Assembly: GCF_000003815.2 (NCBI RefSeq)
Contig: NC_049988.1
Location: 15,855,957 to 15,919,956, forward strand
Origin: Branchiostoma floridae
Taxonomy: Eukaryota; Chordata; Leptocardii; Amphioxiformes; Branchiostomatidae
DNA length: 64,000 bases
Direction of reading: 5' to 3'
Shown: positions 15,597 to 52,200 of the stretch, one piece after another
How positions within the stretch are numbered: the first letter of the stretch is position 1
Layout of the letters: every line of letters starts with the position of its first letter
Program-made: the position numbers and the translations under genes
The notes under the pieces: model-generated
Seen by the model: the letters and a program-made list of their open reading frames with translations, nothing else
Told to the model about the DNA's origin: nothing
The model's database searches: none

Positions 15597-15704
15597 CCAT
15601 GTGGAAGTCATCTTTCCAAGCGTCCCCTTCTGCTGTCTTCTTCTCGTCTCCTCCCAAGTTTGGTACACCATTGTCGTAGGTCAGCGTCTTGGAAAACAGT
15701 TGGC
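15597..15704 (-). CDS. Gene A exon 7: blade 3-4 linker
   Basis: Acceptor TTTCTCCAG, donor GTAAGT, 108 nt, phase 1 to 1. It codes GQLFSKTLTYDNG, NLGGDEKKTAEG and WKDDFHMG. It matches gene B exon 7 ([10 protein letters not shown] ... EDDFHLG) at both ends and diverges in the middle. This is the last exon of gene A recognised in the window. Confidence 0.88.
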
Positions 15705-18700
15705 CTGGAGAAAGGAGAAGAAGATATTGGTAAGCAAGTTGCAAATATACAAGGTTAGAAAAATACCCACTTAAAAAAAAATCAAACCTACTAATAAGTG
15801 ATTTTTATGAGCTTTCAGCACTAGTTTTTCAATTTCTGAATCATTCCTCCGGGCTTAAATCTAAAAGTAGATTTCAGTTTCCAGAAATGTCCCATTGGTA
15901 TAACCTAAATGTCATTTCAACTCTCCAAATCATAGGATGACCCATCAACAAGTTTAATGACATCATGAATGTGATTGGTCCATTACAGCCTGTTCTGTGG
16001 TTTAATGAGACCATGAATATGATTGGTCCTCAGCAACCTGTTCTACGGTTGCCCTGGGCTACAAGGGTCAATCACCCGAGGTCACAAAGGTCATGACAGC
16101 CAGTCTACCACTTATATGTAATGGGTTCTGACTTATGGTGAAGTACAGTCAATAAAATGACCTTTATCTCTTTTCTTTAAACAATACTTTGGGATAAAGA
16201 GGAATATATCTTCTGTCTTCAGCTTTATCATAATGACTAGTGCTATTTATCCTTCAGAAATATCTGTCAATAACATTACAGCGCATCACAATTCTTATGA
16301 TCATATCTATAATTTATGCCATTACTACGATGTAAAATGGAATATAAATTGGTATTTGTTGCTTTATTTTGGTATCTTTCTTTTTAATATGTAAGACCCC
16401 ATTCATATCTAATGTCAGATAAAAGTACATACCCACAAGGGGGTAAGTTAACTTAAAAATGCAAGCTCTGCTGCAATGTGGGCATTTGCAGAAACTGCGG
16501 ACAGGTTTTTTTTCCAAACAGGAAGACAGGTGCGTTTGAAAGTCTGGCACAAACTGACCATGATAAACATGAAACCTCAAGCCTCTAAGTTGCTGACTGA
16601 GCAACCTGGATTCGTGCTATGATTGCCTAAGGTCCCTGGACACAACTTAAAAGCGAACTACACCCTTTCATCTTGTAGAGCGCAATCAAATTTGTTCAAG
16701 GCAGTTGTACAGTTTTGATGCTGTAGGGTTTTCAAGAAGGCTCTGACAAAACCTGCCAACTAGGATTTAATTTTCACTTTTCACACATCTTTTCCATAAC
16801 AAGACAACTGAATTTTACAGGATGCATGTGCGACTATCCAAAGAAGGCTCCCAGTTTGTAACTGTAGGAGATTAGAGGGATGTATGCAACCTGGTCCATA
16901 CATTGAATCAGTGATCTACCAGCCTGACATTTTTTCTGTCCCCTGAATTTTGAATGTACCTAGTAAATCTTGTTGAAGGCGATGCTAGAGGGGTCCAGGG
17001 TTATGCTCCCTGGGAAAATTTTGAAATCTTGACCATCTGAAATGCTGTTTCCTTTATTTTGCTGGTAGATCTAGACTCAGTGTTATTCAATCAATATCTT
17101 TATATCCCAATTTCTGCCCATCACAGGGGCAAAATTTTTGTCTGTCTCCAATGGCAAAATTCTGTCAGAGATCGAACGCTGCATTGAATCATTGTGCAAA
17201 GGTATGTAATGAAGTGTGTAAATGAATAGCATCTAAGGACAGAATGATAGTGTCAGACTGTCTCCTAACATCTGGGATTGAGGTCAGGGCAGCAACATGT
17301 TTGAAGACATAATTTCCTGCCTCGAAATTGATTTCAGAGTTGATTTCACAGATGACCAACCAAGACGCCACCTTGCTGCCATTATCAATGTTTAAGTTCC
17401 CTAACGGCACCTTCCGTGCATTCTTGCATGGAACTAGAGATGGCCGGAATTTGGGTTGGAATCTTGAGCAAGGGGTACTTTTGAGCATTATCTTTTTTGT
17501 CTCTCCATCTTCATGTCTACCTTGTCCCCCCAATGATCAGGAGGTCAAGGGACTAGGTAGGTAGGTAGTTAGGAATGTGGGTTGGAATCTTGAGCAAGGG
17601 GTACTTTCAAGCATTATATTTTGTCAGAAGATTGTGCATACCATCAAAAAGACAATACGATATTAGATACATCTTGTCATTGTAAAAAAAGAAGACAAGC
17701 TAACCTTAAGACTATATAAAACAGCAACATACATGTAGTTTACTATGACCATATCTTAAGGGATATCATCTTAGATAGAATGAGAAGAGGATCTGTATAC
17801 TGTAAGCTCTTCACTCGGTTGTAATCCTTCTACTAAGCCAACAGATTAACATCACTTTGACTCAAGATTATCCTTCAGTCTCTGTTTCTAATCCTTCTCA
17901 AGTAGAATTACCACTGAAAGGAGCATTGAAGTGGTCCATGTGCTACTATCTGCTGACTGGATTCTTTGTTTTCTGGTCAATGCCATTGCAATGATAAAGA
18001 TCGCCTCAAGAATTTCTTGGAACCTTTTCCTTAAATCTTAAAGTCTTGTTTACTTAAAAAGCCTAGAAATTTGAAATGAAAGACAGAAAATTTCTTATTC
18101 TCCAATTCATAAGCAAAACATTAAGCCAAACCAAGGAATTCTGGTAAAAAGATACTAACAACTTTTTTCCGTGGCACTAATAATACCATTTTATCAACTT
18201 TTACCCAATTAGGAGAATGTAACTGCACAATAATATATCATATAACCAGATATACAAATGTAAGTAGTACCAGTACACTCTTCTTTTTCTACTACCAGGA
18301 GGCTTTAACTAATGAATGAACAGATGTTCTATTCATCAAAACATCATGTTCTTCTTTTCTTTAAACTAACCTGATTTTATTGGAAATTCCCTGCAATTGC
18401 CCTGTTATTTCCGATAGCCTGCTTAATTAACTTCTGAGATTATACAAGCTCATTGGGTCATCATTGGTGGGTTTTTCCAGCGGCACGTAACGAGGGAGGA
18501 TCAATTCTCAAATAACGCAAACATGGTTCTGGGTAAAGAGAGGTTCTGAACGGGAACTGTCGATCGTTATGTTGGGACAAATGGAAGAATTACGGCGTAA
18601 TGCCCTACTTAGACATGCTGGAGTCTAGGGGAATGACTGAGCTATATACTAATTATGGACAGAGTGGATAGGAACCAGGAAATGCAGGGATCAGGAAGGC

Positions 18701-21700: not shown

Positions 21701-24700
21701 AAGGAGAAAAAGAAAAACCCATTATGACATCCACACTCGAGAAAAACAATGAAAAGTCAACTACCTGGAATGATTTTTGTTTAAAAAAGATGTCTTTTGG
21801 AGAAGATAGACCTACGCTGAACTTTAAGCCTGTGCTGAACTGTGTGGGATTTGAAACCTTTTAACAACTAGCCCAAGCTGCGAGCAGGTCTGCTAAGAAA
21901 CTAAAGCCCAGACAAAAACTGGCTTCTTACATGTCTCACAACACAGCTCAAGAGCTTGAGCTAAAAAGTTCAGTCTTGGAAAAAAAGACTCTGACATTTT
22001 ACGTCTTATCCAAGATTTACTACAGCAAAGTTCCTCCTTAGCATTTAAGGGTGTAAGAAATCAAATCTGAGCTGCCCACTCGACAACGATCAGTCTAAGA
22101 AAAAAGTCCTTGACATTTTCGTATATCTAATAAGGGGACTACAGTAACTAAGTAAGATTGCTCCAAGTAGCGAAGGGTATAGAATAACTGATTCGGGCGC
22201 CCTGCAGTATTCTAGCCAATCTGAAATTTCTTTCCGTCCCCTGGATTTTGAACGGAAATCCCGTCAAGTCAAGCACTGGAGGCTTCCGTGTGACTGTTCC
22301 AGGGGGTCCAGGAAAACGTTGGAATCTAAGACCCTATTAAACACTATTTCCTGCATTTTGAGGGGCAAATTTTGCTGGAAAAGAGTAGACTCAGCTTGGC
22401 TCAATGGCATCTGTGCTGAATTTCTGAAGACCTTTGCAAAAATATCATTTGTTTCATATCTGTACATGCCAATTTTTGTCCGTCACATAGGAAGGACGAT
22501 ACTGGCTAGAACCCTGTAATGCCCAGTAAATAAATCAAATGCACACAGTGCTAGGTGTTTATGCTCAAGAATGGCATATAACGAAAATGTCACGATTTTC
22601 CCCACCAACCTCTGCTTGGAGAGTACCGAAGGATATAGAATAACTGATTCGGGTTGCCCAGTATATAAATCACATGTGCACAGTGCTAGGAGTTTATGCT
22701 CAAGAAAGGCTACAATCATCCCAGGAAACTACATCTCCTAGGTTTGTAATCACCCTGCAAATTACGACAGCACTAGCTGAGCTGGGGTAAAATTCGATTA
22801 ACACTGCCTGCCAGTCAATAAGTGATCGCAAGTCTTTGTGATGTTCTCTGGGGAGGTTCCAGGAATACTAATCAATAGCTCTTTGGGCTGCAGACTGCAG
22901 TTTCTTGAATTTTCTTTTCACCTGTAGTATATCATCTAAACTTTTTAACTATGGTGTTCTATTGTACCAAGGAGGTTGAAAAAACCTCCTTGATTGTACT
23001 GTATAGTTCAAATCTTCCATGCTAGTTGTTGCAATGGATTTAATTTCAAGGAAGCCAGAAAACGTCCAGCTTGCTTGTAGAATTTAGACCTTCTTCATTC
23101 TTATAATTTTGGACATGTTGCTAAAATTAGACATTTTTGCCTTGTTTTATTTGCTTGTCTGTTTGTTTGTTTGTTTGTTTATGTTTGTTTTACTCTCATA
23201 ACAGTCATACATAAAATCAAGTGTATGTGACATAAAAATGAGACTGTTATAAAGAAATTCTGTTACCTTGCCAAAAGTAGCTCCCCACAGCACCCAGCAG
23301 AAGCTGTTCAGCATCCTTGAGAGAGAAAAAAAGACAAAGTTTTTAAACACCAACAACTTGTCTCACCAACTGAAAACTACATTTAATTACTAAAATAAGA
23401 AAAATCAAATGAATCAGGTTAGCTTTACAATCCACAATTAAAACTAAAATGCTGAAACTGGGTAGCAGATTGTTACTTCACATGCAAAACACAAAATTTC
23501 TCATGCAAAAATGTCACTATTACAACATAATACACTACTACACAGATGGATACAAACAAAAGGCAAACATAACACAAAAACAGTCAGGGTGGAATTCAAC
23601 ACTACAATCTACTAGTATCTAACGAGCATGGATGATTGGATTAAATCACTTTCTCTTTTTGGAAACAAAAAGTGAAGGTGAAGGAACACTGGTCAAAAAT
23701 CACAATAATTGACAAATACAACAGGTGGGATTATTCATATTGTAAAATTCTAGACCCATGGTTTGTTAGTAACAGACAGAAGGACAGAGAGATTTTGTTA
23801 GGAAGATTGAGTTTGGGTACAAGACGAAACACAGCCTTTTCTTCCTCTGTCATCACAAAATATATGGGCGAGGAAAGAAATGACCTGTTTTATGTCCAGT
23901 AACAAGGTGACAGACAGAGGAAACATAGATCAACAGTGATTTCTCTATGGTATTGTTCAAGTCAGGCTCTTATTGTGTTGGACGACAAAAAGTTGATGTT
24001 CAGCCTCTATCAGAAAAAAAGACTGATAGCTCACTACTAGCTTGAAATAGCTAGCAATTTTATATACTGTACTGTACTGTGTACATTACTTTTTTTTCGC
24101 TTTATAATTTCATGTTGTTGTACATCAACTTCAACTTCTATGTTCAAAAGCTAATAACCAGTAAATGAGCTGAGGAGTTTTAGTTTTTTTCATCCATGAG
24201 GCAAAGTGATTTTGGGCTCTCTACAGGGTTTAAAAAAAGGTTGATTGCTGCTGCCGGTGTATGGCAATGCCCCAGTAGGATCCAACAGGTTGTTGCTGCC
24301 TTGGTGACAAAGCGTTCCTCACGTTATCAAAATCACTTCACCGATCCGATCTGAAGTTGAAAATCTGTGCGTCACAAAACCGCACACGGGCAACAGATGG
24401 TTCATAAGCATTTATCGCATCCCAGAGGGACACATTGCGGCACCGCAGCCAGGCGACACAGTACACTTCGACAGCATGCGGTGTCGTTCTTTGAGGCACG
24501 CAGTACGAGAGCTCTGACCCCCGAAATCTTTAGGTCACAAGTTGTATGAAAACTTTTGAAAGCTGTTGTGACCATGGAAGAAAAGAATTCGCCACCACAG
24601 GAGACATGGTTTTAAAAGGGAGCTGACAACAACGAGAAAAAGAAGAAAGCATGGCTCTTACCAAAGATTAGAAAGACCAATATCATTATAAGAGGCTAAC

Positions 24701-27700: not shown

Positions 27701-30700
27701 ACTTCTTGACACTGAGCTTGTCTGAGCTGCCCTGCAAGACTTTCTGCGAGAAAATACTATGCCAAAATCTTTTTTTTAAATGGTAAAAATGAAGTCCTTA
27801 TCAAGCATAATCACAATATATAAATATGCGATATAAAGGTCAATGTCCTCAAGTTTAAATGCACAGTCAGATGTCCCAGGCACAAAAAGGTCAACGACCC
27901 CTGACTGAGTAAGAGAATTTTTTTTACAAATTCTGCCTTTAAAACATTTTTAATTTTCAGGTTTTTCCAACTGATTCAAATCTGCTTTCTCATTTCAAAA
28001 GGAATATATAAATGCTATTTTCTTCCACCGGCTTTGATCTCAAAAACGGAACTTCTTGCCATCTGAAGGGACAGAATTGTCCTGAGGGCTGACTGAACTG
28101 CCAGAGAATTTCCTGACGGACCTTCCAAGGGTTTCCTGCACCATGAACGGCTAAACCTACAGGCAATAACAGGAAAACCCAGCGGCTTCATAATGAGCCA
28201 TCAAAACCTCAACATTTGCCTCCTATCAACACTAATTGTAGTAGCCTGGTATCCAGAAGTATCATAGATCCCCAGTCTTTTCTGTCTACTAATGAATTCC
28301 GGTGAGAAAATATTTGGTTTGTTTTCTTACCAAAGCATACATAGGAAGGAACAATTTATGCTATGAGCTATGGTTAATGATGTAGGGAGTTTCTTCTTCA
28401 ACGCTCCAAAGAACCGAGTAAAAACAGAAACTGTTCGTGACTGCGCAATAAAGCTAATTAATGACCAATTAGAGATGCCATCTCTTTGAAGGCTCCATGG
28501 CAACAACTATAATTAACGAGAAGACTACCAACATACCTTTTGATACAAGTCACAAAGCATGGAAACAATTCTTTATATATTATCATATGACGAGAGTGTT
28601 GAAATTTTTGTCTGACAATACATGCACAGTACTCGTCTTTGCCCAAACTCACATGTTGGTCTTTTTCTTTACATCACATGTTGGTCTTTTTTTTTTACAT
28701 CTGAGAATATTGCCCATTTCTCCATACTTCCTTCATACTGAACCTTGTTACCACATAGTACACACCTCAAGATAGAATTACTGACAAGAAAACACAAAGA
28801 AACACCGTCCGATATCCCCAGGGCCTTATGTTACATTTTCCTCATCTTCAAAGAAATCCCTCTAACTCACAGTAACTGGGCAACATACACACATGCATGA
28901 AGAAATCTTGAAAACAACAAATTTTCCTTAAATCTGCCTGACCAGGAAAAAGAAGAGGGGTTAAGAAAGGCAAATTTTGAGCCAGTAATGATATCTTAAC
29001 AGGTATCAGGTGTATGGAAGATGAATAAAGTGAGAACACAGGACATCTAGCAATGCATTGAAACCTGACATTACATCCAAAAGTCACTGTTTGAAGAGAA
29101 AAACGAAAGGCAATTTAGATGACTGGAATAGAGCAAAAGTAACTGTATCAGAAAAGGATTTCAAAAGGAAACGGAGCAAACCAAAGTTTGAAACACTGAA
29201 GAAAACAAGCGTAGGTAGAATCAAGCCATAACAAAAGAGATAGAAATGCCTTTAAAATTAATTACAGCATAGAGAGCTACCTACTAGATGCTATTCTCAA
29301 ATATCACCCAAAGAAAGCATAGAGAAAAGATGTGATCCTTTGAAGTGATGGTATAAAAGAATGGATATGCCATACATATCAAAATTAAATCGTGTGTTGC
29401 AAATCAATTGAAACCAAAGCTAGTATGAAATAAAAATCCAATTCTAATTAGAAATAGAAAACAAGATATAGGCAGTCACTCAAAGAAAAGAAGCAGAAAC
29501 CAACTGAAAGAAACCACTAGACAGGAAATAACGGATTCTTGGTAATCAATCATATTGGCAAAGACAAGATACCCATTAGGACATTACACGTGTAGTAAAA
29601 AAAGTGGGCATTGTTTTATATTTCACTATTTCATAGTGTTAGGATTACTCAACTGTACTACATTGTAGGATGAGCAGGTTTGATTATCTGGTTCAGTTTG
29701 TAAATCAATTCTTTTAGGTTACCTCAAGTCTACTTGTAAGAGGAAATTAAAGGAGAGTTAGAAATAAATTTACAAGGTTTAGAAATCTGAAAGGCCTTGT
29801 CCACCAGCTACCCTACTTGGAGAGAAGTAGGACAGTAGAGGTGCCATGACTGCTCTATATCCAGGAGGAATGGCCAGTGTTCTAGCCAGCCTGAAATTTT
29901 TTTCCGTCCCCTGGATTTTGAATGGAAATCCTGTCAAAGGAACGTCGATCCTAGGGGGGTCCAGGGGTATGCTCCCCAAGACCCTCTGAAATGCTATTTC
30001 CTTTATTTTGGAAGGGGCAAATTTTGCTGCTAGACTCAGCATGGTTCAATTAGATCTTTACATGACAATTTTTGTCCCTCACAGAGGACGGAATGGGCAA
30101 AAATTTTTGTACCGTCCCCAGCAGAAAATTTCCATCAAAGGACGGAAGGACGGACGCTGGCTAGAACCCTGGTCCGAATGGCACAGAAGGGAGAGCCCAC
30201 ACTTCCTCCCCTAGTCGCACCCTGTGTGTACTTACATTAGCAAAATCCAAACTGATACCGGCCTGACAGTAGCCAAGGCGGCCGAAACCACCCTGGCTGT
30301 CTGGAATGGGGAACAAAAAAACCACAACAAAGAACATAAATGTTGGTACAACAAGCAGCATGCAACACAGATGGACACGTGTGGCACTGGCAGTGGTGAG
30401 TGTTTCTATCCTGGGGGCCAGTCTGGAGATGTGGTACAAACATCCTTATGGAACAGACATCTTTGGCTACTTCATCTTGGATACGGTTATCTTGCAATCG
30501 CGGGCAGAAATCTTTGATTTCTGGCATTCCTCATGTCCACATGTTTTCATTTGTTATCTATGGAAATAGATTGACACAGGCTTAAATGAATGAATAGGCA
30601 AATGAAGGAATAAACCATTTGATTGATGGACTTTATCAAAATGACAATTATCAGCTCTGGCTTTCAAATGTAGGTGCTACATAGCAGAATAACAAAATTT

Positions 30701-33700
30701 ATGCAATGTTGCTTGCATATTATATCATCCAAAACAAATGATTTTGATAATAAGCTTAAACTTTAAAGTCATTGTCTTTAGTTTGCTTTTTGAAGATGTA
30801 TCAGTATTGAAGGCATTTTTTTGTGATTTTATCCAGACTATTCCTTTGCAGTCCAACTGGGTAGTCTCCAAGATAATGCTGCAGCCACATAGATTAGATA
30901 AAAGACAGGAACTTCAACTTGTTCCCATGATTTGGGTAACAAGCTTCATGTGTAAAGTCATTGTCTTTAGTTAGTGCTTTTTGAAAATGCCTCAGGTGTG
31001 AACTGAAGGCAATTTTAGTTATTTTCATCAGGACTATGCCCTTGCAGTCCAGCAGAGTAGCCTTCAAGGCTGCATGTAATATGCTACAGCCATATAAATC
31101 AGATAAAAGACATAAACTTGTTCCGAAGGATGTTTGCTGACCAACACTTCGCCCAGACTGGCCCATGTCAGGAGCTGACCGTACGAGCTGTGAGTACTTA
31201 CGGGTGAGAAATCAGCACTAAACCCGGCCTGGCAGTAACTAACTTGATTCCAACCGATATTACTCTGCCAATCAGAGTCAAGCGCTACAGGAGAAACCAG
31301 CACAACTGTTAATGAGTTAAGAACTCCTCCCTAGAGGCTGAAATAAAGATCACCGCAACATATGTGCAAAGTAAAGAAAGGAAAATAAACAGGGAAACTA
31401 TGGCAGCCATCGCATGCATTCCTTAATACTAAAAGAAAGTAGAAAAGTAAAATGAAGGCTAGTATAAGTGAAGCTGCCCTTTTTACTCGTGCATTAAGGA
31501 ATTATTTCTGACATGCTGTAATCTAAGCCAGGCATTAGAATAATAAGTCCTATCCTACCTTTACTAATACTGTATCATAGTACATATCAGTCAGGCATTA
31601 GATGTACATTCATGCTTGTCATGAAAACTAATTTCTTCGTGCAAAACTGACTTGATTTAACTAGTTTCTTCGTGCAAATTTGACAACATCTGCATTTCCT
31701 GAAGCATACGCATTACCATCAACATTATGCAACGTCCACATAGCATTACAATAAAGCATTCATTGAAATCCAAAGGTGCAGGCAACTTCCAGGATTGTTG
31801 CAGCACTACTTACCCCGCTTGCAGGGGGAATAGTTCCTGATTTGCGTGAAGTTTGCAGCAGCGAGGAAGCAGTTACCGACAGGCTCCCTCTCGTTAAATG
31901 TGTCTGTGTAGTACACATATCGTGGGGCACATGCCTACAGTAAAGAAAAGTACTTGTTAGAAACTGATAGCAATAATTTCTAAATACATTTTGATGAAAT
32001 TATCATCATTTACTTAAGAAACACACTCTTAAAATATACACAAGACTCAGATATCAGACATCAAATTGTAAGATGCTGGCAAAATTCAAACATTCTAACA
32101 TCTAACACAAACATGTTGATCCAAGACAATGTGGCATTAAAGATCTCTTTAAACTTTCGAAAAGTAGCCAGTTTAGATGCATTGCAATCAATACCGTCTA
32201 TATGCTCTTATCTTCAAAGCAACAAACACAAGTTAACTAATCTTCATCGACATCAAAAATACTTGGATGACATTTTACTATTGCGTAGAATAACACTACA
32301 TTTTTTCAAGTAGTAGATCCTCTCTTACAATGACTACGTCCTTGGCAGGCGATGCGCTCTTGACGGTGGCTCCGAACCACTGTCCTGACTTCTGGGTCTT
32401 CTGTAGGATGTTCCCCTGTAAGTCCACTCCTCTGTCATCACCTGGGGAGACAAATTGTTTGTTTGTTTGTTTGTTTCTTTGTTTCTTTTGCACATAAAGA
32501 ACAAATAAGAACATAGTATAGAAAAGTAAATAAAAGTCCTGGAGGAGGGGAGAAGCCTTTAAAACGATATCCTCCTTGGTAATGTGGATTTCCATTGTTA
32601 CTTTATTTAAACCAGTCTTATTTGATGACAGACGTATCAAAACAATAAAACAAGTTTGACTTCAGACATAAACCAACATTTGAAGGAAATGTTCTTTTTC
32701 TCTGTCAAGTCGAAACTTGATTCCATGAAACTCTTGAGGCGATTCTGAACACTGTGCAGATGTTCCAATTAAACGGGAGGCATAGGGACTACAACGCAGC
32801 CCCTCCCCTTTCATACCAAAATTTATAAAATGTGACTTCAACTTTCAAGCTTTCTCAAGTTAGACTGACCAAGGAGGTCCCTCTTTCAACCTCCTTGGAC
32901 TGACCTAGCTAGTTAACCTGGTAACCCCTCCCCTCAGACACTGAATCAAAGCTTTGCATTTCATGTGTGACATGCAAATGTCTGTTTGGTTATTTTCATT
33001 TGGAGCCAGTACAAACAAACAGATATTTTACCATGTATGCTTAGCTGCTTTGTTATCAAAAACCTACGTGCAGGTACGCCCACCACGCACGCCTGTCAAC
33101 ACGTTTGTTCTGCCGACTGTCTTCACACCACATATCTCAGTCGTAACCTAGTTTCCACGCCATTTGACGATGCATCAAAAAGACAGGCTGTGTGAAGTTT
33201 CCAGATGTAACCTGTTCACACGTTTTTTCTTATCTTTCATGCAGATAACAACCGTAGGAGTACCCTATCAGATTTCCGAAGCGGCCCCCCTCCCATCCAA
33301 CTTTTGTCGACTTTGCCACCAACAGAGATACATCAAAAACAAAAACCCTAAAACAAGATCCAGATAGAGTCGACTGTTTGTGTGGTAATTTGCATCATGC
33401 TCTAGTATCAGAATTAATTTTGAATTCTGGGATGCAACAAATGTCGATAAAAGTCCGTCTGAAAATCATGCTTTTCAAATCGATTCAATCTTACCGCCAT
33501 GTTGGAAATCCAAATATTTACTTCCGGCGAGGTTACTACCATATATGGTCATGTTGACCCAGTCGGCATACGTACTTCCGGGGACAATATAGCTATCTGG
33601 GCCGTGACGTCACCAGTGTTTGGCATTCCCCAACCCACTTTTACGTCGTCAAAGGGTTCTTAGAATATCAAATTACATTTTCAGTACAACATTTATTTTT

Positions 33701-36700
33701 TCAGCCAAAAAAGGTAATATTTACAAGATGATTTATCCCTTAACAACAGAAACTAAAAAAAATTATTTTCTGATCGTTCTTGCGTTCTTTGTTTTGTTTC
33801 TTTACAACTTGCCTTCAAAATACTTCGGTGCTTTATTGCAATGTTATTTTTTCTTCCACTACGATGGGAAAAGGTCTGCTTTAACTATACGATCTCTACA
33901 CTTTCAAGTCGTCCGAAACGGAATATTCAAGGACGTCATGGCTTAGTGGTAGTGAATAATTCCAAATGCTGAAAGGACAGGAACTTTTCTGGACAAGGGT
34001 CGTCTGAACAGGAAGGCAGGACCTATTTTGGCGGGAAAGGGGTCAAACGACACCGGGAAATTCTTTCTTCAAGTAGCCCACTTCGATCAGTAAAAATAGC
34101 ACACGTCAGGCGCACAAAAATTTCAAACTGTCCGAAATCGAATGTACATGTACTTGTCAAGCGGCTTTCAAAGCTGAATCCTGATTTGCTATGATTTCCT
34201 TGGAAATAATTTAGAAATCTATTCAGTTCAACTTTATAAAGAATAAAGGCGGTTAAAGAAAACTCCATGCTCAGTTATACAAAGGGACCACTCAAAATAT
34301 TCGCAAATTAATAAATAAATAAGTTGCATACATAACTGATCATGGGAATTTTCACTGCCTGCTTTTTTTACTGACATCACCGTTGCAAGGAAAGTTTTTG
34401 TTTTTTTATCTGATGACCTTTTATCTGATGACAATGACCTTTTGTCCTAACGTTACATTCATTTTACGCCTCAACATGACACAAAATTTCATCTGACCAA
34501 CATGTACGTATCAATGACACAGTAACGTTCTGTTCCGTAATCTCATAGCATATGCAATATGTCTTCCCTGGTAAAATAAGAAATAAAATGAATAAATCTT
34601 CCGATTCAATGGATACAGTTTTCGGTCCACTGTCTTGCCGGCTGAAATATTTGCTTGGAGACACACTGTCATTTGTATACTATAACCATTTCCATAACCA
34701 TAAAATAACGAGCGGTAACATGATTTGATCGGGGATAAGAGAAAATCCTATTCAGAGGGTATTTTCGCCGAAATCAATTCTGGGTGGTTTCCGCTCAAAA
34801 GGTGTTGATAACGACTCTGCCGCAAATCCTATTTTCATACAAAATTGATGGAACGGGCGTTATTCCGCTGGGAAGGGAACTTGAAAGATTATGTATGAGC
34901 CCCCCCCCCCCCCTTTTTTTGTCAACAGCACATTGCTGTCACTTTCTATTGGCTCCGATCATTGCATACATATCATAAGGTTTACCCGTAATACGCTCGT
35001 TCATATGTATCATAATGAACTCGCATTTTTGGTATATGCTGCGTTCGCGTTTCTCCAGAAGCTACGGTAGTACTATTTCAAGTTTACATAATTTGCATGA
35101 TCACGTCACAAATACCAATCTCTTGATGAAACCTTCCGGTTGATATCAAACCACCAATTCATCCCCTGACATCCAGTCAACATGAGAGATTCTAAGAAAA
35201 GACCGACAAAGACCACTTCTTCTAGCGTCACTTAAAGGCAAAACAGGAAGACGTTTATGTTCCTTATCTTGCCAATCGCACTGATGACATTCTTTAACGC
35301 TAAATTTTTAACGCAAACTAGCTGCACTCAACTTTTCAAGTTTTTCTTATTTTTTAAGTCGGCTTTGACGCTAACTTGATTTGTACGCAAGCTCTAACTC
35401 AATTTTTCAAGTTGTTCTTCTTTTTTGTTTAAGTCAGCTTGGAAGACCTCACATGTGGGAAGACCTAAAACTAGTCAAGTTTAGCGAAGTCACGGTACAG
35501 GCTAGAAGCACCACGGAAATGACACAATAAGTTTTACCTTGTGTGTCGAAAGCGATGGGTGCGCATGGGTTGGGAGTGAGGGAAATACTGGTCGTGACGT
35601 CACAGCGGAACACCGCACCCCCCTCTGTGACTCCCGGCTGGGCCGTCTGACTTTTGGGGGCTCCCGCCAACAACCTGGAAATAGATAAAGGCACTCATTA
35701 CAACTTAGTAGTTCAGAGATAAAATGATACTTACATACCCAATACTTACCGATGTAAAAGTGAGACTCGAGGAGAAGACAATAAAAACACTTTTTTGCAG
35801 GTTTGCTTTTCGCACTTCGGTCGCTTTGTCGGAATCATGACATTCCAACTTGTCGGTGGATGATTATATGAAGTATCTTCCCTTTTTAATGTTTTATCTT
35901 CGTTCTTGTCATGAAGATATATGACTTTCAAAAATTCCAGTGCGTTTCCAACTTCTGAAAAATGACCACAGCTATGTCCATTAGAACGGTAAACAAAACG
36001 GTAGACTAGGATTACCCTACATACACTAATGTTCAGTGCAATGGCGTGGAATCCAACGAACGGAAGAACCATCCAGCTAGCTTTAATGTAATGGCGAAAT
36101 TTGCAATTATTTCAATTATTCTGCCATCGCCCATCCATCTTTCTCAATTTTTCCCCCATGCACTGAGGGCAGCCCCGTTAGTGGACCCCCCCGGTGGCAG
36201 CTTTGTGCCCTTTTGTGGCCGCTTCTTTAGCGAGCTGGCGCGAGAAGAGACGGCCGACAGGTGGTCCTGTGCGTGATGCACGACAGGGAACATTCGAGCA
36301 CAAAGATGGCTCAGAAATCAGGCGCCAGAAAAACGGAGCTGTGAGTGGGAGGAGAGGTTTGTGAGAGGGACATCGGTTCTCTTAGCAACGGGAGAACTTG
36401 TTCCCAATTAAAAAAGCAAAGTTGAAACTCTCAATGAAAGGGGAGAGGGGAGATACTAGTACACACACACAGACTCACACACACAAAGCTCTTCAAAATG
36501 ATCATGAGCTGTCCTCCCTATATATGCTTCTTGTTGGTCTTTCTCCTTTTTTTTATCATCTTGAAGATTCTGCTTGGAGGTCAGGACGCATAACAATCGA
36601 ATCTTCCCTACCCATGACTACCACGACAGAGAACATTCCCTAGTAACGGATGAATGGTAATAGATGATTCGGAAACTAAAATCTGTCCTTAGAATAAGGA

Positions 36701-46284: not shown

Positions 46285-49200
46285 GTACGTACGGCGATTT
46301 ATACGACAAACAGGTGTTATATACTGCCCGTATACATATATAATGTACATACATTCCATAGGCCCCGTATAACATGTTGAAGACAGGCTTGTCACAGCTG
46401 GCTAACAAATAAGTGATAGCAATACATGTAGTCTCAATAATTGTGTCCGGTTTTCGTTTTAAGATGGCGATTTGTTTCCGATAACTTCCTAATTCCTGAT
46501 AACGATACGATTCATTAAAAATGCAGCACTCAGAAACACACACATTAATTAGCAAAGAAACGAAAACAAGGCTTACGCAATGAATGTCCTACATTCCAAC
46601 AGCACATTAAAGTAATCCCTCCTTATCGATCGCTTATATCCACATGGCGCCTTTACAATGTACATGTCGAGTATGTGTTATTATCACTCGTATAGTTCGG
46701 TACCGAAACAAGTTAGTTGATACCTTTATACTAATATTTAGATATCAAAATTACCATGCTGAACACCACTGCACGGCGCAAAACACATTATGAATCTCTG
46801 TATTGTGTGTGTGTGTGTGTATACCAAGCACAGAGGGCAACAGGCTTATAATAGAAAAAGAAGGCGTGTCAAAATGACTGGAAAATGATTCTGGCAAGAG
46901 CAGACGTAATTCATTAGTGAGCGCACGTCGCCAAAATAAGTGATAGCTTCATCACATCCTGATTACAGTATTCTGAAAACGTCCGTTCCGAGAAGGAACT
47001 GTTGAACTGCAGATCGTCAGCTTGTCTTCCTGTTTATACTTTAAACCCACACATACCACGAAATGTAACTCTTTTGTTCCATCAGCTCATTTCTAAAAAC
47101 ACGAGCGGAGATGAGAATAAAAACACAGGAAAAACGTACGTCTGTGTTCACAGCAAGAACGACTTCTAGATGTCCTCATCGGCCACGCATTTTAATAAGT
47201 CCTTTGACTTGGAAATGTTATCTTATTGGGACTCTTTTGTTCTATCAGTTCATTTCTAAAAACACGAGCGGAGATGAGAATAAAAACACAGGAAAAACGT
47301 CTGTGTTCATAGCAAGAACGTGTCCTCATCTGCCACGAATTTTAATAAGTCCTTTGACTCGGAAATGCTATCTTATTGATGCGTTATCATGTCATACTAG
47401 GGTGACCCCAGCCCGGTATCTTGTTCAAAGGACACCCAATGCATGCATATTAATAATAGATAAGCCATGTATAATTAACGAAGGGAATCGGTGGCAGAGA
47501 GAGAAATGCTTACCGATCGCAGTGATACTATGTGGCGTTTCGAGCACTTAAATGCTGGGCAGGCACTTAGGGTAATGTTTCCAATGGTGTAATTATGTAA
47601 AACACTCGTGCAACAAGTGGCAGCCAGTCTAGTTCTACCTGCTCTCTTTGTATCGATGTTTGTAAAGAGATATAACAAAATCGTTTCTATCTATAAAATA
47701 CAATATATTACGCACATACAATGTATATTTGAATACCTAGTAGTAGCAAAAAAGGAGTGGTAAAAGGCAGACGTATTAAAAGTCCGTAATATAGCAATTT
47801 ACTTGTGTATCCTTCTAGTATCAAATATGTATCGATTTCCAGAATGATCGCTTTCCTATGTAGAATTGCCTACTTCGAATTGCAAAGAAGATATGTAAAA
47901 TTACCCTCGTAAGAAACTGTAAGTTCCAACAACCAAGTAGCCAACCATTCCAACATCAGACAGAACGGAAATACAGACTTCTTGTAGCCTGTCTAGTGTT
48001 CCGCGGGCCCACAACAAACAATAGTACAGGTGCCTACATGTGTTAACATGGTGCGGACACATTGGTAACACACACGCAGACAAAAGATAGCGTGACATGT
48101 TAGAAACACGTGGTCTGGGGTCAGGATCTCTTTCAGTATAACTGTCGGTAGATGATCCTTAGTTAAGCGATCGACCTCAGACTGAGGACGAAGCATGGAA
48201 CGTTTTGTTATACTCTGAAAAGCAGACTTTTTGCCAGGGCCAGGGAGAATTTGTTCGGCAACTAAGGCAGGTTTTCCCGAACAGAATTCTAGGACGCGGG
48301 TTCGAATCTGATAGAGTGGTCGTAGCTAGCAAGAAGCTCAAGTTTGATTCAAACTAAAATGCCTAGATATTGGTATTTCTAATTGCTTGCTTATGTCGAG
48401 TCCACCCGGTCTCGAGTTGGCAGCCCATGTGTCCCTGTTGCTCAAGGCTCGGAGTTAACCTCAAGACCAGTGTCTTTCAGCTCGCGATTCTTGTTAATAC
48501 AAAATGTACTTTAACTTGAACTTTGTGAAAATGTACCTTTGTAGCAATTGTGACTGTATTTTGGTCCTAGTCTTTCCTTCAAATCTTCAACCCAGGTTAT
48601 TATCTGGCGCACCGCGGGCCAACACGAGCCAGCCGGGGGTGGTGCGGGGAGGCGCCGTGCTGCGCTGCGAGGTGGACCCGGCACAGCCTGACTCCTGCAC
48701 CCAGATCAACTTCGACTCTACAGGTAAAGTAACAACAAAACTAGCAATTAATGGGCTTCTTTTATGGCTAAATAATTGGAAAATCGTGCCAACACGAGCC
48801 AGCCGGGGGTGGTGCGGGGAGGCGCCGTGCTGCGCTGTGAGGTGGACCCGACAGGCCTGACTCCTGTACCGTGATCAACTTCGACTCTACAGGTAAAAAA
48901 AGGCATTTTCCAGGCTGACCTTTGAGCTATATTATCAGAAAATGGCAATATTTTAACAACAAAACTAGCATTCAACAGACTTCTTTTAGGGCTAGATATT
49001 TTGAACGAAAATGGAGCTATTGTACCTACTTGTAGAGAAAAGCACTGATGCTTTACACAATGTGAAGTGTACCCGGTACAGCCTGTCCCTCCTACCTAGA
49101 TTATATTCAATCGAAACAGATAACAAAACATCAGACAAAACCACTAGAATGCTAAAATCTATCCACAGTATCTATGCTGTGTAGTCTTACCAAGTGTTCA

Positions 49201-52200
49201 CTTCTAGGAATGTTGCATGGATTAGTTTTTACTGTGCAAAAATATGTTTTAAGTAGTAAATTCATGCTGTCCCCGTCCTTGGTGCTGAACGGGTTGGCCA
49301 ATGAAACTGAGAGCGGGAAATCTGAGCAGTAACAAAGTAGCATCTGTGTTTGCCCTAGTTCCAACCTAGATTTTTCAATCACTTTTACTTCGACCTTTTT
49401 CATATCAGGGGTGAAATTGATTCAATACTCTGAGAAACAGGATAGAAAGACCACTTTGTCTTCGGGACATACGCTTGAATATACTTCACAGAACCTATTT
49501 TCATTATTGTAACGTAACATATACGTGGTATTCTAAAACTGACAGAATAGCTTCTATTAGCTGTGACGGCTTTTGGTCCTTGTATGTTGTCTAATGTATT
49601 AGTGCACAAGAAGTCACCCGTCATGACAGTCGCCACGGTTAATTATCATGTCTCTTTTCACAGGCTCAGAGACGGTTGACGGCTTCCAGGACCAAAAGTC
49701 GGACCAGTGGTTCGGCTTTTCCGTCAAGAGCGCATCTCCTGCAAAAGACGCGGTCGCTGTAAGGGCGTTTTAATGTATCTGTAGTGATCGGCTAGTGGCA
49801 GAAATTCTACTTCTGGATAGCTAGCTTTCAAAATCAATTTTGGGAGTTCGAATCCCGACTTCGTTATCATTCGGTGTTCTGAGACCCCAAATATATTAAC
49901 ATGTTACCGGTATTGAGAGTTGTCTTTGGAATGTAATGTTATCAACTTGCAATTGACCTAACCCTGGTCATAGTCAAGGAAACTAACTTCCGTAGTTAAC
50001 TTAAGTTAAACTATGTCTGCACCCCCTTTCATAAGAAAAGCCTCACTTAGGCGTCCTGTGCTCAACGCCAGACGAACTAATTTCTGCTTACCCTGGCATG
50101 TACACCTCTGTAAATGACTTGTACTCCAACATTCCGAAGACATGTCATTCATTGTATGACGAACTAACTTCCTTGAGCGTACATAACCGGGGTTTTGCCT
50201 GCTCCCTTCCCAGGCCTGTGCACCGCTGTACGTGTTCTACGCTCAACGTGACGACACACGTGACCCTGTTGGCAACTGTTTCCTAGCAACCAACGGGATG
50301 ACAGCCTTCGACAGCTACTCCCCCTGCCGAGGTTGGTATCACCCAAGTACTTCGGACCGATCAAAATATCTCGTAACGTGGTGTATTTCAATTGATATCT
50401 GGTTGTGATTGCATTGCCAGTATTACAAATTGCACATAACGGGGGAAAACAACACTAAAGAACGATATAACATATAAAGAAAGCAGAGTAGAGATGAAGC
50501 ATGCTGCTTTTTAAGTACATGTACCTAGATTGAGCTGAGGCCCACGGAAATTTATTCAGATGGCCAAGCAACGGAGTTGTGGTAACACTTGCGCCACAGG
50601 GAAAAGGAAAACTTTGAACTAACTCTGAATACTAACTGGATTGGTTTGACTTCTTCTCTTAGAACAGTCGAAGACACAAATTTGCACTTTTTCTGTAATG
50701 TTTGGGCTCTTTGGCGTCAGATTCTCCATTCCCCAACATGTCAACAGAATTGTTCTATGAAGCATAGCGCGACGTGAATTGGGTCATCAGGTCACAAAAC
50801 AATCTCACCTTTGACCTTGTTTTGATCAGCCCTGGACGCTCGTGCATTAAATGACAGGACTCAACACGGACAGTGTGAGAGCGGCTTCAGTCTGGACTTC
50901 AGCAAGGTAACGTTAGAGATTTCTAAAATCATACCTTAGATGTTTGAAAGACTTTCTCCTGTTAGGTATCAGCTATGTACTTATAGTTACAACAAACGAG
51001 CAACAACAAGTATCAGTCTATCCAGTACTATAGTTATATTTATGTGCTGCTCTAGCATCATTTTTCTATCCATTGAATGATTGATCCAATCCATTACAAA
51101 GATTATCCATTTATCCACTATCCATCCATCCTTCCTTCCGTCGTTCCACCCATCCATCAATCCATCTAAATAACCTCATTGGCACAATGTGGGGACATTA
51201 TCATTCTGTTTCCACCTGTAGATTTCCTTAGTCTCTACCAGACTCCGGATCGCTGGAAAATCGTAGAAATTGAACAAATAGAGAGGAATATAACCGGCCA
51301 GGGAACAGCTCGCGATCCTAGGATCCGCGGTCGCGTTACTGTTGCCTAGCCGGCTATATTCCTCTGGCCGGCATACTCCTCTATTTGTACCATTTCTACG
51401 ATTTTTTCCAGCGACTCGGAGTCTGGTAGAGACTAAGATTTCCTTGAAATTATTTTCTGTTGTGTGCAGGACTCAGAGGAAGTGTTGGTGGGTGCAGTGG
51501 GGGATCAGTACTGGGCAGGTAAGTGATTTTTTTGGCAACACCCTAGGAGTGGAGCCAGTAGTACCGTAACTTATACAAGTGGTAGATTTCTTCGATTAGT
51601 TTTCCCTGGCTGGAGGCATGTAAATCAATGGTAACCAGTATCCAGGTAGGTATGAACAGATAAACCTTCACCCATTTGCCTAACCAAGTAACCTGCAACA
51701 AATTTTCAAAACAGCTAGGGACATAATGTAAAAAATAAAGTCACTGTTTTTGGCCATTTTTCTACATTATGAGTTGAGTCTATCTTATTACACTGCAAAG
51801 CAATATTTACAAGGTCTTACAACGTATGGATACGACTTTGTTGAGCCGTGAGGATGTCTTGAAATATGCGCACTTCCCTCCGCCGCTTGAGTTGTCCGCC
51901 ATTTTATCCAATTCTCCGACGAACCAAAGTGCGCTTTAGAACGCGTTCGGTGGTTCGCTCGAATCGTTACTGAAGTTTGTTGCGACCGCAACGGTCGATT
52001 CGGAAATCTACTTCCGGTAGGCTACCCGGAAGTAAGCGAATTTGGTCGTGGCTTACTTTGGCGTTGTTAATTAGAGCTAAAAATGTGATAAAATGACGCA
52101 GATAAGTTGGAAATAAGTTACAAATGTCAATCTGACTGGAGATTTTCAAGTTCAGAACATTTGAAAATTTGGCGCCAAATTTCTACATTATGTCCCTTTA

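Follow-up and report, generated by a model that had tools for sequence, protein, structure and literature searches.

The lancelet Branchiostoma floridae carries, on the minus strand of contig C10, an integrin alpha gene (here gene A) with two intact versions of exon 5, termed 5a and 5b. The DNA analysed, referred to below as the window, is a stretch of 64,000 nucleotides (C10:15855957-15919956) from a genome of 513,431,437 bases in 431 contigs. Gene A is known as a partial model, with exon 1 not located and the whole gene unassembled; exons 2, 3, 4, 5a, 5b, 6 and 7 were placed inside the window, exon 8 lies just outside it, and more homologous exons follow as far as approximately C10:15839324. 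Exons 5a and 5b probably form a mutually exclusive pair, by which the loop between blades II and III of the beta-propeller would be swapped in an alpha subunit of the arginine-glycine-aspartate (RGD) type, giving one gene two ligand preferences.

Both exons possess an AG acceptor and a GTAAGT donor, enter in phase 1, leave in phase 0 and encode YCQAG, so that a preliminary description of this DNA was correct in placing two intact exons at the same position. It had also given their lengths as 83 and 65 nt and argued that either exon alone keeps the frame while both or neither break it, and scripted joining of the exons bore this out: the frame is open across exons 2-4, either 5a or 5b alone, and exons 6-8, while inclusion of both leads to a stop in exon 7 and omission of both to a stop in exon 6. 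Homologous neighbouring exons, equal phases, and a frame that admits one copy but not two or none are the features expected of a mutually exclusive pair. A further in-frame donor lies 15 nt beyond that of exon 5b. In a profile scan of an 8.5-kb stretch of gene A, using six exon-5 cores that did not include 5b (five from the B. floridae genome and one from alpha5), exon 5b scored 36.2, compared with 26.3 for the highest of 300 first-order Markov simulations of the same stretch. The scan found no third exon 5 in gene A, the next-ranked real candidate scoring 9.8.

Among the support for the reading as a pair is a parallel in the abalone Haliotis gigantea, established by reverse transcription PCR (RT-PCR). 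According to PMC13170236, isoforms 1 and 2 of abalone ITGA8 differ in exon 5, with mutually exclusive exons 5-1 and 5-2 located between exons 4 and 6. The abalone gene resembles gene A in its RGD-class alpha name, in having an exon 5 pair and in the location of that pair in the beta-propeller; the abalone pair was seen by RT-PCR and Sanger sequencing. The passages of PMC13170236 that describe the pair do not state its exact site. The complement of the abalone exon 1-11 reverse primer given there reads LTKLGDI (hand translation), and the LGDI exon would be the 12th in gene A and the 11th in a paralogue, gene C, when unlocated exons are counted (exon 1 in both, exon 9 in gene A, exons 7 and 8 in gene C). 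From the exon number and this one primer translation, it is plausible that the abalone pair occupies the same site as the pair in gene A. The suggestion in the preliminary description that the site was possibly undescribed is weakened by the abalone report, and its overall interpretation is partly supported: the frame logic, the position in the propeller, the separation from the known X1/X2 site and the single exon 5 of the paralogous gene B (see below) all stand.

The two early stops would also suit a productivity switch, in which one exon is productive and an early stop arises when the second is included as well or when both are skipped, setting the dose of the receptor rather than its ligand. 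An abalone variant minigene gave a form without both exons (PMC13170236), as such a switch would allow. A pure poison exon, however, would have no need for YCQAG or for a loop kept in frame in both copies, and this explanation is considered very unlikely.

The protein encoded by exons 2-8 matches alpha5 best among human integrins (E 2e-43), followed by alphaV (1e-40), while exons 2-6 match alpha6 at 2e-9 and alpha4 at 9e-7. By its best propeller match to alpha5 and alphaV, and by its equivalents of alpha5 Phe187 and Asp227 (see below), gene A is assigned to the RGD-type alpha class (alpha5/alphaV/alpha8/alphaIIb/PS2). The Pfam FG-GAP model gave 13.9-14.0 bits on exons 2-8, below the cut-off of 22.1, for a query without blades 4-7, and a genome-wide FG-GAP search returned 4 matches, none of them in gene A. 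The alignment of exon 5 covers alpha5 Asp154-Trp157, in the blade II-III loop, and the following YCQGGFS strand, which agrees with the earlier placement of the pair on the blade 2-3 edge near the ligand face. In this alignment, which is gapped and of uncertain register in the loop, DSDW of 5a stands opposite alpha5 DFSW (D154, W157), and 5b retains the Asp but has a Gly opposite Trp157. Measured from Cys to Cys, the loop comprises 19 residues in 5a (two Trp, charge 0) and 13 in 5b (no Trp, four Gly, charge +2). The figures of 28 and 22 residues given in the preliminary description count the whole exon with its junction codon; that the loops differ is correct.

Replacing 5a with 5b in the query raises the score against alpha5 (111.3 to 115.6 bits), alphaV (106.5 to 112.0), alpha6 (40.8 to 45.4) and alpha4 (32.4 to 38.6), and lowers that against alphaIIb (59.8 to 48.9), to which the 5a query aligns with 73 residues to 73. 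These shifts may in large part be due to loop length alone. Downstream, exon 6 encodes SYFWQG, as does alpha5 (Phe187), and KDDFHMG of exon 7 corresponds to alpha5 YDDSYLG (Asp227). Phe187 and Asp227 hold the Arg-like end of RGD mimetics in the docking described in PMC7198601. Since their equivalents sit in the constant exons 6 and 7, the RGD-Arg pocket looks unchanged between the predicted isoforms, with the adjacent loop altered.

The II-III loop is known from other animals to contact and select the ligand. According to PMC8241838, it is the docking place of laminin in alpha6 (D153, R155, R157), makes up the alphaIIb cap, carries D154 of alpha5 for the synergy site of fibronectin and houses the I domain in I-domain integrins, and it is argued there to recognise protein ligands in alpha6, alphaIIb, alpha5 and perhaps most alpha subunits. 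Alpha5 Trp157 is cited in PMC12298672 as deciding RGD specificity. An alternative is that both forms are made but that the swap mainly affects folding or the choice of heterodimer partner, since the loops are unlike in length, charge and aromatic content, any of which could act in that way; the argument of PMC8241838 for ligand recognition by this loop speaks against it, and it is regarded as improbable. Under the preferred reading, 5a and 5b would descend from an exon 5 that was duplicated long ago in gene A, each mRNA would take one of them, and mis-spliced forms would be lost through early stops. The choice of exon would then swap the loop beside a constant RGD-Arg pocket: 5a would provide a longer loop, alphaIIb-like in length and with a DxxW matching alpha5 Asp154/Trp157, and 5b a shorter, glycine-rich and basic loop, which exceeds that of alpha5 by one residue and lacks the Trp. 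The expected outcome would be one receptor gene with two ligand preferences.

The codons of the conserved core bear on the age of the pair. Over 10 codons, differences between 5a and 5b fall on 4.7 of 5.3 synonymous sites (pS 0.88) and on 3.3 of 24.7 non-synonymous sites (pN 0.14; Fisher p 0.0004 on rounded counts), the core being 10 codons long and picked for protein likeness, so that pN is biased down by construction. Near-saturation of synonymous sites with residues kept fits an old duplication of which both copies would be in use. Because pN between 5a and 5b is lower than between either of them and exon 5 of gene C (5a 0.18, 5b 0.25) or gene B (5a 0.28, 5b 0.24), the evidence leans to a duplication within gene A's own lineage; these comparisons covered 5a, 5b, gene B and gene C, with exon 5 of a further paralogue, gene D, left out. 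When compared together with 300-nt flanks, 5a and 5b have one 50-nt block in common at E <= 1, consisting of the core and donor and 72% identical. Collapsed haplotypes were considered as the origin of the pair and rejected: flanks that agree in this one block are too unlike for alleles, and a 1151-base stretch matched the assembly at a single place in a search that skips very common words.

The similarity runs 14 bases beyond both exons (GTAAGTACTCACAG after 5a and GTAAGTACACACAG after 5b), with 13 of the 14 intron bases in common, and this donor element, which may also be written GTAAGTACWCACAG, is CA-rich past GTAAGT. Among 15 donors of the family (105 pairs), those of 5a and 5b are the sole pair with at least 7 of 8 bases alike past +6, the next best having 6, and random GTAAGT sites reach 7 of 8 in 0.17% of pairs. 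The 14-mer pattern derived from the two donors has no other exact match within the window. We infer that it is a kept regulatory element, possibly the site of a splicing factor.

Several observations weigh against a mutually exclusive pair, in addition to the downward bias of pN and the register of the loop alignment mentioned above. If two mismatches are allowed, the donor 14-mer has three matches in the window (expected 0.87), a number equalled or exceeded in 4 of 100 shuffles. No enforcing device for exclusivity came to light: the 5a-5b intron is 901 nt long with plain GT-AG sites, inverted repeats of at least 18 nt are absent from nt 29700-31830, and intron-intron RNA pairing, computed with the 5b-6 intron represented by its first 1000 nt, was no better than in shuffles (12 each). 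The known devices (a short intron, a U2/U12 clash, competing RNA pairing) are not present in every known pair, and their lack weakens the description of the exons as strictly enforced, not as a pair. Lastly, the pair was read from the DNA of a single species. Alternatively, one copy, more likely 5b, may be a dead duplicate that is no longer spliced in, and partial exon copies do arise in this gene family (exon 2 of gene B, exon 9 of gene C). Those copies are young and partial, however, whereas 5b is old and whole, with an acceptor, a consensus donor and the right phase, and it keeps both the protein core and the donor element in common with 5a, so that a dead duplicate appears unlikely.

The pair in gene A is distinct from the X1/X2 site of vertebrate integrins. 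In alpha6, X1 spans I193-L235 (PMC8241838), and alpha6 residue 192 aligns with the codon split between exons 6 and 7 of gene A (E 2e-9 and 8e-11; a short query gave a weak E of 0.18), on the assumption that the numbering of the alpha6 chain equals that of PMC8241838. X1 begins one residue beyond the stretch encoded by exon 6, and X1/X2 thus corresponds to the position of exon 7, as had been proposed; the pair in gene A lies at exon 5, before the GxYxWxG strand and not directly after it. Gene A yielded no further copy of exon 7 at E < 1. In the fly, the alternative site of alphaPS2 is probably X1/X2-like, and PS2 splice forms reportedly differ in their binding of RGD fragments. Vertebrate alpha7 and alpha6 remain comparable to gene A as carriers of alternative propeller exons, and in alpha7 the X1/X2 choice alters the preference among laminin types (PMC12564407). 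The alternative 29-residue exons 4A and 4B of Drosophila betaPS lie in a ligand-preference region (PMC9218073), but in a beta subunit. A similar mode of action, in an unrelated protein family, is found in FGFR, where the mutually exclusive exons IIIb and IIIc lie in the ligand-binding domain, the sole amphioxus Fgfr gene being organised likewise (PMC5703972).

The region of the pair is also that of the I domain. AlphaX has a weak match to the gene A query (E 0.07) that begins at residue 54, within exon 5, and the start of this match presumably lies after the I domain of alphaX. That the match begins only there is consistent with insertion of the I domain in the II-III region, between blades II and III and directly after a conserved proline (PMC12422189). 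The I domain is a domain of about 200 residues in an alpha clade next to alpha4/alpha9, while gene A has two short alternative loops, and PMC4237329 reports no I-domain integrin in B. floridae. The pair in gene A sits at the point of entry of the I domain in another alpha clade. One conceivable history, which we put forward as a long shot, is that an exon-5 loop switch existed in the mollusc-chordate ancestor, was kept in abalone ITGA8 and gene A and was lost in vertebrate RGD integrins, the same loop having independently acquired an I domain in a different alpha clade. If true, the II-III loop would be the standing place at which evolution alters the ligand choice of integrins. In vertebrates, the choice between RGD integrins is made through many alpha genes; the locus suggests that a lancelet-type chordate could alter the specificity-setting loop by exon choice. 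Gene A would also offer two natural receptor forms, identical but for the swapped loop, suitable for isolating the effect of the II-III loop.

Table 1. Positions in the window of the exons of gene A and of associated features, with exon 5 of gene B for comparison
Feature	Position	Strand	Remarks
Gene A exon 2 (LLAGAPKSQTAQPGVTEGGAVFRC...)	35538..35674	-	aligns to alpha5 from residue 36
Gene A exon 3	32329..32441	-	
Gene A exon 4	31814..31934	-	C-terminal residues NYSPCKR, phase 1 out
Gene A exon 5a, 83 nt	31202..31284	-	long II-III loop, two Trp, net charge 0
Donor-proximal intron element GTAAGTACTCACAG, 3' of 5a	31188..31201	-	
Tandem unit 1, 5a-5b intron	30927..31119	.	75-85% to other unit, four blocks
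Tandem unit 2, 5a-5b intron	30738..30914	.	diverged copy of unit at 30927..31119
Gene A exon 5b, 65 nt	30236..30300	-	short II-III loop, no Trp, 4 Gly, net charge +2
Donor-proximal intron element GTAAGTACACACAG, 3' of 5b	30222..30235	-	
Gene A exon 6 (DAEQLLLGAVGSYFWQ)	23267..23315	-	alpha5 Phe187 equivalent
Gene A exon 7	15597..15704	-	X1/X2 position; alpha5 Asp227 equivalent (KDDFHMG)
Gene B single exon 5, 77 nt	50830..50906	+	

Much of the intron between 5a and 5b is taken up by two tandem units of about 180-190 nt each (nt 30738-31119). On the other side of 5b is a dispersed repeat of about 290 bp (nt 29879-30167) with inverted ends GTTCTAGCCAGC and GCTGGCTAGAAC, which stops 68 bases beyond the donor of 5b. 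A first look at the genome yielded 3227 candidates, of which 40 were scored, and these, apart from the repeat itself, showed 78-83% identity; weaker copies in the window are located at nt 16909-17129, 22205-22496 and 62985-63296. It looks like a family of miniature inverted-repeat transposable elements. An influence of this repeat on splicing was considered, and nothing was found that speaks for or against it.

In the profile scan of genes A-D, exon 5 is double in gene A alone and single in genes B, C and D, in accordance with the single copy previously noted for gene B. No second exon 5 was found in these three genes, the best leftover scores being 2.3 (B), 2.3 (C) and 7.5 (D), and the leftover matches in genes C and D overlap the real exon. 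At least six integrin alpha genes are present on contig C10, at approximately 12.38, 14.09, 14.95, 15.84-15.92 (genes A and B) and 17.68 Mb; the inventory comes from two protein searches of the genome and its counts are lower bounds. Genes E and F (the latter known from one exon only) appear alpha4/alpha9-like by eye and carry exon 4 and the loop within one open frame, and for this reason cannot have a pair of the 5a/5b form. A motif scan of both strands of locus L030 gave no match to the VDGT-type alpha integrin described from cephalochordates (PMC12422189).

Two partial exon copies were observed in the paralogues. Gene B has a partial second exon 2 at nt 48785-48892 of the window, 92.7% identical over 109 columns, without the first 19 nt and one base shorter, which is a young and probably dead exon duplicate. 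Gene C has a partial second exon 9 of 72 nt (C10:14953031-14953102, locus L020), 95.8% identical and situated just upstream of the real exon. Near its left end, the window contains a run of N (nt 1903-2824).

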